Shown here: positions 34,573 through 37,848 of the stretch, one piece after another
Layout: each line of letters begins with the position of its first letter
Numbering within the stretch: the first letter of the stretch is position 1
Assembly (NCBI GenBank): GCA_018457135.1
Contig: JAGGDU010000009.1
Span: forward strand, 1-64,000
Length of the DNA stretch: 64,000 bases
Reading direction: 5' to 3'
Source of the DNA: Trichodesmium erythraeum GBRTRLIN201
GTDB lineage: Bacteria; Cyanobacteriota; Cyanobacteriia; Cyanobacteriales; Microcoleaceae
Program-made: the position numbers and the translations under genes
The notes under the pieces: model-generated
Told to the model about the DNA's origin: nothing
The model's input: the letters and a program-made list of their open reading frames with translations, nothing else
Databases searched by the model: none

Positions 34573-34738
34573 ACAAGCAAATTTTTGAGTAATATTAATA
34601 TTATTTTGAGGTTACATTCTTTATCCCTGTCGCGGAGAGTATAACAGAAACTTTAAAGTTAAGAATAAGAATTAGACTAGAAACTCATTTATATTCTATA
34701 CTCAAAATGAAATATAACTCTAAAAAAAATCAATAATT

Positions 34739-34746
34739 ATGAGTGT
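34739..34746 (+). CDS. apcD: apcD exon 1 (8 nt)
   Basis: ATG AGT GT, immediately followed by the group II intron 5' consensus GTGCGAC. Joined to 37371, it gives ATG AGT GTA GTT AGT CAA, that is MSVVSQ, the normal start of allophycocyanin alpha-B. No other start upstream of the 3' exon supplies these residues. The exon is far too short for gene finders, which would start the protein at the internal Met encoded at 37450 and lose the first 29 residues or so. Confidence 0.9.
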
Positions 34747-35349
34747 GTGCGACTCGTTGGCCACTAAACCATGAAACAGGCTATAAATGGCCACCCCAAG
34801 TCAATACATGAGGACAACCTCCGACTTGTGTATAACTCTTATGATCTTAGAGGTGTAATTCCTCTCGCCTTGTTGTTAGGTTGACAGCATAGGCCACAGG
34901 GTAGAGACTGAACATCAATCCCTGAAGCTGGCCTAAACGGGGTCAAAGCTTTAACTACCAAATAAGTGAGACTCCAAGCAGAGACTGACAAGTGGACGAA
35001 CAGGAAGGTAATCAAACTCTCGTTAAATTAGACCATTCCAAAGGTAGCTATGGAGTGAAAGACATTATGTCAGAGGAATTATGGATAACTTTATATGCTC
35101 GGAGTTATCAACAACCAAATAAAACCCTCCGGGAGATTTTACCCCACTAAATCAGTCGTAATAAAGGCATAAGGGAACGAGAAAAACTCTCTAAGACACC
35201 TAAGAATAAATTATAGGTCGAGAACTTAGGAAGCCATTCAAGGTCAATCTACACAGTTAGTCGTAGGTCTTAGAGAGAGCAGGATTGGGTAAGAAGCAAG
35301 ATTAGCAGACGTACCCACTGTTAGACGTAATGTAAAGCAATGATTAGCA

Positions 35350-37350
35350 ATGAATAAAGCTAAAACACTAAAAAGAAACTTAGGAAACCCTCAACCATTT
35401 TTAAGTGTGGCATGGGATACAGAGGATATACCGTCTCAAGTTAGTATCAATCTAACTCTTAAATGGAGAGACATAGACTGGAGGCGGGCTATGAAGAATG
35501 TATTTAAGTTGCAAAAGTTAATTTACAGAGCATCCAGCTGTGGCAAAATTCGCAAGATGCCTAGATACCAAAAACTTCTGACCAAAAGTTATTACCCTTT
35601 GTTGCTAACTGTTAGATGGGTGAGACAGGATAATCAAGTTAAAAACACCGTCGGGGTAGATGGTATTAAAAATCTACCACCAATGCAACGTTTTAATTTT
35701 GTGTACCTACTCAAATCACATTCCCTGAAAGCCATTCTAAACCCTAGAGTCTCAATACTAAAGCAAGGGTTAAATGCAAAATTTTCCTTAAGCATCCCAA
35801 CAATGTACGACCGAGCATTACAGGGCTCGGTCAAGCTAAGTATGGAACCAGAGTGGGAGAAACGCTTTGAACCTAATAGTTATGGTTTGGGACTAGGACG
35901 ATCAACCAATGATGCTATTGAAATCATCTTTACCAGCATCAAGAATAAATCTAAATACTTTCTTGATGTTGATATATCCAAATGTTTTGATCTATTTGAT
36001 CTAATTAACCATGATGCACTGCTAGGAAAAATTAAGAAATCATCCTACAGACGACTAATCAAACAATGTTTAAAGTCTAGAGTTTTAGACAATAATCAAT
36101 TCTACCCACCCCAACAGCTCCTATTCACCTACCCCGACAGCTTCCTTCTCGGAAATAGATGTGGGTTGGTTGAGTTGGATACAGCACAGGGAGAGGTAAT
36201 GAGTCCTCTGCTAGCAAACATCACCTTACACGGTATAGAGAAAAGACTAATGGAGTTTGCCAAAACCCTAGATTTGAAAAATAAAAAGGGTGCTCAAATG
36301 AGCTGGCAATCGAAATGTCAAAGTCTAATTCTAGTAGACTATGTAGATGAGTTCGTAATTCTACAGGAAGATATCAAAGTACTACTGCAAGCAAAAACCG
36401 TAATGCAGGAATGGTTAAACCAGGTAAGATTAGAATTAAAACAAGAATTGACCAGAATTGCCAACGCTCTAGAAGAGTATAAAGGGAACAAGCCTGGATT
36501 GGACTTCTTCGGATTCACAATGAGGCAAGGTCAGGCAAAGATAGCAAAACTTGGATTTCAAACCCTGATTAAATTGTCCGCTAGAAGTATTAAAACTCAT
36601 TACCGGAAACTGGCAGAAAGATTTGATTCATACAAAATTGCACCAGTCAAAGGATTAATTGCTAAACTTAATCCAGCTATCAGTGGATGGGTTAACTATT
36701 TCTCAACACAAGTAAGTACTAATAAAATATTCAACAAACTGGATATGCTTCTGTGGAAGAGACTATGGTGTTGCGCAAGTAGACAGCATCCAAACAATTC
36801 AGCCACCTGGGTTAAACAAGAGTATTTCCCGAATATTGAGAATGGAAATTGGATTCTCCCGCGGGGCGAATATATGCTAAATCAATACTCTGATGTTCCC
36901 ATCATAGGAGACATCAAAGTAAAAGATAATAACTTAACACTAGATGGTGACTGGAATTATTGGACTAGCAGAGTTGGCAAATATTCAGGGGTAAAAACAG
37001 AGACTTCAAAATTATTCAAAAGTCAGAAGAATAAATGTGCATTTTGTGGATTGACCTTTAGAGTAACTGACCTAATAGAGGTAAACTATGTAATACCTAA
37101 GTTTAAAGGTGGTGACAACATACTAAGGAATAAACAATTGTTGCACCAATATTGCCACGAGACTAACATTGCTTTAAATCACAAGAGCTATCTAATAGGC
37201 AATTCACAGGACTTACCTGAATGTTACTTATGGGTTAACGATATGCTGACACTAAAGCAGGGATGTACCCTTGAATTGGGACCTCTAACAGAGGAGCCGG
37301 ATGAAGCGAAAGTTTCATGTCCGGTTCTGAAGACAAGTCGGGTAGGGTGA
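35350..37350 (+). CDS. Group II intron-encoded maturase/RT-like protein, catalytic sites altered
   Basis: A 666-residue intron protein. N-terminal region WRDIDWRRAMKNVFKLQKLI, reverse-transcriptase fold (TMYDRALQGSVKLSMEPEWE, NSYGLGLGRSTNDAIEIIF, YFLDVDISKCFDLFDLINHD), maturase domain X (KLNPAISGWVNYFSTQVST and LLWKRLWCCASRQHPN, about 435-490) and a C-terminal HNH module with Cys563, Cys566 and QYCHETN. Key changes: the YADD box reads Y331-V-D-E334; the usual QGG of RT motif 4 reads Q-G-E at 280-282; the HNH D-H-I reads N579-Y580-V. It probably supports splicing but not retrohoming (inference). The frame runs on through domain V to a stop inside domain VI, so its true functional end is upstream. 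Confidence 0.92.
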   Translation: MNKAKTLKRNLGNPQPFLSVAWDTEDIPSQVSINLTLKWRDIDWRRAMKNVFKLQKLIYRASSCGKIRKMPRYQKLLTKSYYPLLLTVRWVRQDNQVKNTVGVDGIKNLPPMQRFNFVYLLKSHSLKAILNPRVSILKQGLNAKFSLSIPTMYDRALQGSVKLSMEPEWEKRFEPNSYGLGLGRSTNDAIEIIFTSIKNKSKYFLDVDISKCFDLFDLINHDALLGKIKKSSYRRLIKQCLKSRVLDNNQFYPPQQLLFTYPDSFLLGNRCGLVELDTAQGEVMSPLLANITLHGIEKRLMEFAKTLDLKNKKGAQMSWQSKCQSLILVDYVDEFVILQEDIKVLLQAKTVMQEWLNQVRLELKQELTRIANALEEYKGNKPGLDFFGFTMRQGQAKIAKLGFQTLIKLSARSIKTHYRKLAERFDSYKIAPVKGLIAKLNPAISGWVNYFSTQVSTNKIFNKLDMLLWKRLWCCASRQHPNNSATWVKQEYFPNIENGNWILPRGEYMLNQYSDVPIIGDIKVKDNNLTLDGDWNYWTSRVGKYSGVKTETSKLFKSQKNKCAFCGLTFRVTDLIEVNYVIPKFKGGDNILRNKQLLHQYCHETNIALNHKSYLIGNSQDLPECYLWVNDMLTLKQGCTLELGPLTEEPDEAKVSCPVLKTSRVG

Positions 37351-37370
37351 CTTATCTGGCTTAGTTTAAC
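37294..37370 (+). ncRNA. Group II intron domains V and VI
   Basis: Domain V 37294-37327: 34 nt, GAGCCGGATGAAGC stem side, GAAA tetraloop (37308-37311), pairing GTTTCATGTCCGGTTC. Domain VI 37331-37370: 12 consecutive pairs including G-U, then A and GTTTAAC. This is the catalytic core and branch-point helix. Confidence 0.9.
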
Positions 37371-37848
37371 AGTTAGTCAAGTTATTCTCAAAGCAGATGA
37401 TGAATTACGTTACCCCAGTAGTGGGGAACTTGAAGCCATAAATACTTTTTTGAAAACAGGTGAGCAGCGTGTTAAAATTGCTACATTGCTTTCTGAAAAT
37501 GAAAAAAAAATTGTGGACAAAGCTAGTCAGGACTTATGGCGCAGGCGTCCAGATTTTATTGCCCCTGGTGGTAATGCTTTTGGTCAACGCGAACGTGCTT
37601 TATGTCTTCGTGACTATGGTTGGTACCTGCGTTTGATTACTTATGGGCTATTAGCTGGGGATAAAGATCCTATTGAAAGTATTGGTTTGATAGGTGTTCG
37701 GGAAATGTATAACTCTCTTGGTGTACCGGTTCCTGGAATGGTAGAGTCGATTCGTTGTTTAAAGGAAGCAAGTCTTTCTTTACTTGATGAAGAGGATGCT
37801 AAGGAAACTGCTCCTTATTTTGACTATATTATTCAAGCAATGTCTTAA
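37371..37848 (+). CDS. apcD: apcD exon 2: allophycocyanin subunit alpha-B
   Basis: ApcD is a terminal-emitter subunit of the phycobilisome core that passes energy to photosystem I or II chlorophyll. Exon 2 continues [18 protein letters not shown] and ends [12 protein letters not shown]. With exon 1 the protein is exactly 161 residues, the standard ApcD length. The phycocyanobilin-binding Cys81 is present ([16 protein letters not shown]), as are [10 protein letters not shown] and [17 protein letters not shown]. The features distinguish it from ApcA. Correct expression requires removal of the 2624-nt intron; regulation is therefore likely to depend on splicing. Confidence 0.95.

Follow-up and report, generated by a model that had tools for sequence, protein, structure and literature searches.

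We conclude with high confidence that a CL-type (IIB-like) group II intron inserted at the start of the apcD gene in the Trichodesmium erythraeum lineage, that full-length ApcD should need splicing, and that the protein encoded by the intron is degenerate. The intron is 2,624 nt long and occupies positions 34747-37370 on the forward strand of the window (the whole 64,000-nt stretch of DNA that was analysed), beginning with GTGCGAC and ending with TTTAAC. It interrupts apcD 8 nt past its start; the GTGCGAC at 34747 lies directly 3' of ATGAGTGT (34739-34746), to the base where the sequence-only reading had placed it.

The two flanks of the intron together encode a complete ApcD. Exon 1 (ATG AGT GT, 34739-34746, forward strand) contributes 8 coding nt and was delimited by alignment to empty sites at 14 loci; exon 2 (37371-37848, forward strand), which matches the Pfam Phycobilisome family, contributes the last base of codon 3, 158 aa and the stop codon, and is 91-94% identical to the ApcD of close relatives. 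Joining them gives an open reading frame of exactly 161 aa with Cys81 present, as had been proposed from the letters of the sequence. The predicted spliced junction runs from ...ATGAGTGT directly into AGTTAGTCAAG, giving an ApcD N-terminus of MSVVSQVILK. The best solved relatives of the joined frame were allophycocyanin alpha-B chains (296 bits, compared with 194 bits for the best plain allophycocyanin chain), and the earlier assignment to ApcD was borne out by the full-length alignment, the length of 161 aa, the bilin Cys81 and the closer relationship to alpha-B than to alpha. When a start was called mechanically on the unspliced sequence it landed at codon 30 (TTG at 37450), giving a product of 132 aa, which is the kind of late-start misannotation that had been foreseen.

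Comparison with intronless relatives, which the sequence-only reading had suggested would reveal the insertion site, located it exactly. The uninterrupted junction ATGAG(T/C)(G/A)TAGTTAG(T/C)CAA was found in 13 relatives (14 loci) drawn from Trichodesmium, Okeania, Hydrocoleum and other Microcoleaceae, and the nearest relatives with an empty site also keep the upstream TATACT...AAATATAA. The region 34697-34738 (forward strand) probably comprises the -10 element of the apcD promoter together with the 5' UTR, as it contains a TATACT consensus match and is conserved with intronless relatives; the TATACT match alone was not above chance. Upstream of apcD, TATATTCTATACTCAAAATGAAATAT was also present in loci L106, L012 and L131. 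A second, uninterrupted apcD, which would have spoken against the earlier interpretation, was not found in a search of the host genome (assembly 99.97% complete), where the next best match to exon 2 was 54% identical.

The intron has the catalytic core and termini of a group II ribozyme. Domain V (37291-37331, forward strand) was matched by Rfam RF04357 (60.7 bits, E 2e-11) and the catalytic core of domains V and VI by RF00029 at 37292-37370 (57.1 bits, E 1e-8), both above the curated scores. Domain VI (37332-37370, forward strand) was assigned from RF00029 and from the fold: the minimum-energy structure of 37286-37372 consists of domain V followed by domain VI with one bulged A (z = -6.0). 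This bulge was assigned by position to A37363, the branch point, which fits the spacing of 7-8 nt expected between a branch A and the 3' splice site. The core thus ends at 37370, as had been read from the sequence. The intron termini match 5' GUGYG and 3' AY. With a domain V hairpin, domain VI, the terminal motifs, the EBS1, EBS2 and EBS3 pairings and a protein of the RT-X-HNH type all present, the element is a group II intron of the IIB-like CL type.

Both splice sites are fixed by independent evidence, i.e. the EBS1, EBS2 and EBS3 pairings and the TTTAAC 3' end that the apcD intron shares with its siblings in the genome. IBS2 (TAATT, 34734-34738) pairs with EBS2 (AATTA, 35026-35030) at 5 of 5 positions, and IBS1 (GAGTGT, 34741-34746), which contains the G of the start codon, pairs with EBS1 (ATGCTC, 35095-35100) at 6 of 6 positions counting G-U, with a seventh G-U pair possible with G35101; EBS3 (T35137) pairs with IBS3 (A37371), all of these elements being on the forward strand. 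In all ten introns compared, position 35137 was the complement of the base that opens the 3' exon, while the next best column reached 7/10. Among 15 distinct paralogous introns, EBS1 and EBS2 fitted their own exons far better than the exons of other introns (0 of 20,000 permutations), with own-exon means over the family of 5.7/6 for EBS1 and 4.3/5 for EBS2. EBS1 and EBS2 are two of the short variable segments in the sibling 5' domains, which are otherwise similar, i.e. ∼77-86% identical to that of the apcD intron apart from such segments. A duplicate apcD and an artefact of the assembly were weighed as explanations and rejected in view of the own-exon pairings, the genome search and the empty sites.

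The 14-base 5' end of the intron, GTGCGRCTYGYTGG, occurs in 26 copies in the genome and had no match in a reversed-pattern control, and the Rfam group II core gave 24 matches above the cut-off and three more that were weaker (sibling 3' ends were taken from Rfam; the pattern search misses variants with a longer domain VI). The same family also interrupts dnaN (four times), the ribonucleotide reductase gene, ruvA, tsaD, thyX and two lysozyme-like genes and, apparently, guaB3. As at least six further genes are split by this family, the apcD event is typical of this genome, and the rule invoked in the sequence-only reading, that group II introns usually avoid essential genes, is inapplicable to a host in which dnaN and tsaD are among those split. 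Nor is Trichodesmium the outside precedent that it had been taken for, since the genome analysed belongs to T. erythraeum or to something very close to it: its copy of the twintron host protein described from T. erythraeum shows 99% identity over residues 1-81, with intron proteins just 3' of it on the same contig, and its introns in ribonucleotide reductase and thyX agree with those published for that species. In dnaN (C19:954-6818), exons of 30, 55, 158 and 303 nt precede the last exon and all four introns carry only fragments of an intron-encoded protein (IEP), so this essential gene should rely on maturases supplied in trans. A lysozyme/C39-like gene (C134:14278-21748) is interrupted three times, its last two introns being separated by a 45-nt exon, and tsaD (C42:12624-14660) and ruvA (C205:18526-20619) contain one each; joining the flanks of the latter two gave full-length proteins over the NCBIfam cut-offs. 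The ribonucleotide reductase intron (C146:6291-8844) has an open IEP frame with the RT motif YAGN. The intron that follows the guaB3 5' exon (C203:1292-3814) has an open IEP that keeps YADD, PQGG and the HNH pair DH, and may be the active driver copy; a guaB3 3' exon was not found adjoining it, and the contig end carries a second, partial copy.

Selection on exon 2 argues for a functional apcD and hence for splicing. Its dN/dS against close intronless relatives was 0.09-0.17, compared with 0.10-0.17 for intronless pairs, and its terminal branch showed no excess of first- or second-position change; this purifying selection could in part predate the insertion, whose age is loosely bounded. It is extremely unlikely that the intron has silenced apcD and left a decaying pseudogene in a cell that relies on other core subunits. 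T. erythraeum has been described as pseudogene-rich (PMC4649490), which would suit such a history, but exon 2 is an open frame of 158 codons with the dN/dS and the normal terminal branch given above, the three exon pairings and domains V and VI are all intact, and siblings lie in dnaN, tsaD and ribonucleotide reductase genes, where splicing failure should be lethal or severe. In T. erythraeum, 17 introns, ten of them without an ORF, are reported to be spliced in vivo, and splicing with protein supplied in trans has been shown in E. coli (PMC4649490).

We infer from these features and from the established chemistry of group II introns that apcD is spliced in vivo, along the following lines. The intron would have entered the beginning of apcD by reverse splicing, directed by EBS/IBS pairing. 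The precursor RNA would fold so that EBS1 and EBS2 hold exon 1 while EBS3 holds exon 2; A37363 would attack the bond 34746/34747, i.e. the 5' splice site that follows ATGAGTGT, and exon joining would yield the message for the 161-residue ApcD, probably aided by the intron's own IEP or by a related maturase encoded elsewhere in the genome. The AUG (34739-34741) sits where IBS2 meets IBS1, partly inside the exon-binding duplexes, and should therefore be hidden during exon binding. While the intron holds the exon, the AUG would be masked and the intron-bound precursor would presumably be hard to translate; translation from this AUG on unspliced RNA would give only an 11-residue peptide.

The IEP (35350-37350, forward strand; 666 aa) contains RVT_N, RVT_1, GIIM (maturase X) and HNH domains, all over the Pfam cut-offs, and its closest solved relative is the TeI4h maturase (6me0). 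Its catalytic motifs, on which the sequence-only reading was silent, are degenerate in both the RT and the HNH domain: YADD is changed to YVDE, PQGG to AQGE and the HNH pair DH to NY, so that the IEP has neither the intact YADD site nor the HNH catalytic residues of an active retroelement. It scored 201 against the 300-bit cut-off of the NCBIfam group II RT/maturase equivalog, and was altered at 50 of ∼212 positions that are invariant in 13 relatives, which themselves differ at 1-25. An IEP without these RT and HNH catalytic residues means that the intron is probably no longer self-mobile. That it is still a fully mobile retroelement, located in apcD by chance, is very unlikely: the IEP is full-length with every domain present, the target site is perfectly matched, and the guaB3-linked relative with its intact YADD and HNH could supply activity in trans, but the YADD, PQGG and HNH positions and many otherwise invariant sites are altered, and in T. 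elongatus the natural YAGD of TeI4h supports 2.5e-5 % mobility compared with 3.4 % with YADD (PMC2882425).

The IEP frame has nevertheless stayed open. There is no stop in 666 codons although most sibling frames are broken, and in a codon-level alignment the insertions specific to apcD (of 3, 18 and 1 residues) and its single-residue deletion are all in frame; when neutral change was simulated, as little as 0.05 changes per site left the frame intact in only 0.25% of runs. The branch ratio of codon positions 1+2 to position 3 was 0.47 (0.32-0.64) for the apcD IEP and 0.19 (0.14-0.24) for the guaB3-linked sibling, and the apcD branch is therefore relaxed and not neutral, its ratio being clearly below 1. 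Degenerate motifs in an open frame suggest a largely immobile intron that is maintained for splicing only, and we infer that it persists as a splicing-only passenger since imprecise removal would destroy apcD. Given the altered invariant sites, which include the maturase domain (X 10/36, RT 18/96), the splicing activity of the IEP itself is not assured. One might accordingly suppose that splicing depends chiefly on another maturase acting in trans and that the intron's own IEP is decaying without function, and this is possible, if on the unlikely side. The elevated amino-acid change relative to the possibly active sibling and the altered X-domain sites would fit, and trans-acting proteins are documented in T. 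erythraeum (PMC4649490), but the uninterrupted 666 codons, the frame-preserving indels and a branch ratio still clearly below 1 all point to a retained function.

The IEP frame continues through domain V into domain VI (37291-37350 of the window), and owing to this overlap one stretch serves as both ribozyme core and coding sequence. The frame of the guaB3-linked sibling likewise extends into domains V and VI, and several relatives have a stop near that point.

Introns of T. erythraeum have been published in ribonucleotide reductase, thyX and dnaN genes and as the Tery_4732 twintron (Liu 2003, Liu & Yang, Meng 2005 and Pfreundt & Hess 2015). The apcD intron is of the same family, with the GTGCGACTCGTTGG 5' end, the TTTAAC 3' end, exon-matched EBS and a protein-coding host, but differs in that the host is a phycobilisome core gene whose 5' exon contributes just 8 coding nt; unlike its mostly fragmentary siblings, it has an IEP frame that is open but catalytically degenerate. 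Our paper searches, which combined apcD, phycobiliproteins or allophycocyanin with group II introns or introns of Trichodesmium, found no report of the apcD intron; the IMS101 splicing list (10.1038/srep06187) lay outside these searches, and the apcD intron may already be on that in vivo list. With the TeI3/TeI4 introns of T. elongatus (CL/IIB1) it shares an RT-X-HNH protein and copy-specific EBS that match their own site, EBS divergence between genomic copies having been described there (PMC2882425), and TeI4h likewise has a natural active-site change (YAGD); in contrast to those copies, most of which lie in non-coding DNA or other mobile elements, the apcD intron lies in a photosynthesis gene. 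Degenerate but open bacterial intron proteins are described as rare, with one known example as of a 2015 review, namely O.i.I2 in radC of Oceanobacillus iheyensis, which was described as the sole known bacterial intron of that kind (PMC4424553). Like the apcD IEP, it has lost YADD and other motifs without acquiring stops and lies in a host protein gene, but it is of the ML class and from a Firmicute, whereas the apcD intron is of the CL type and cyanobacterial.

A further parallel is the plastid trnK intron with MatK, where RT function is lost, the maturase frame is open and the host gene cannot do without splicing. The branch ratio in the apcD IEP was 0.75 for RT and 0.15 for X, a difference driven by the third-position estimates; a clean MatK-like pattern, with RT free to change and X constrained, was not borne out when altered invariant positions were counted. 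The RT motifs of MatK can for the most part not be aligned and its X domain is clearly conserved, whereas in the apcD IEP the RT remains alignable and X is also altered. We propose only tentatively, and think it rather doubtful, that the apcD intron is a bacterial counterpart of trnK/MatK, fixed in a photosynthesis gene, with a retroelement enzyme turned into a splicing-only maturase and a buried start codon. If this were true, ApcD translation would be strictly tied to completed splicing and could be regulated through it.

Gene-interrupting introns were already known in T. erythraeum and apcD is a clear further case, which extends the hosts of bacterial group II introns to a phycobilisome core gene and has an ApcD N-terminus that simple gene finding overlooks. 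The ribonucleotide reductase IEP is a second catalytically degenerate yet open intron protein, and counting that of apcD at least two further proteins of this kind appear to be present in this genome. T. erythraeum also offers a cultivable system for studying how bacterial introns change from mobile elements to splicing-only elements.
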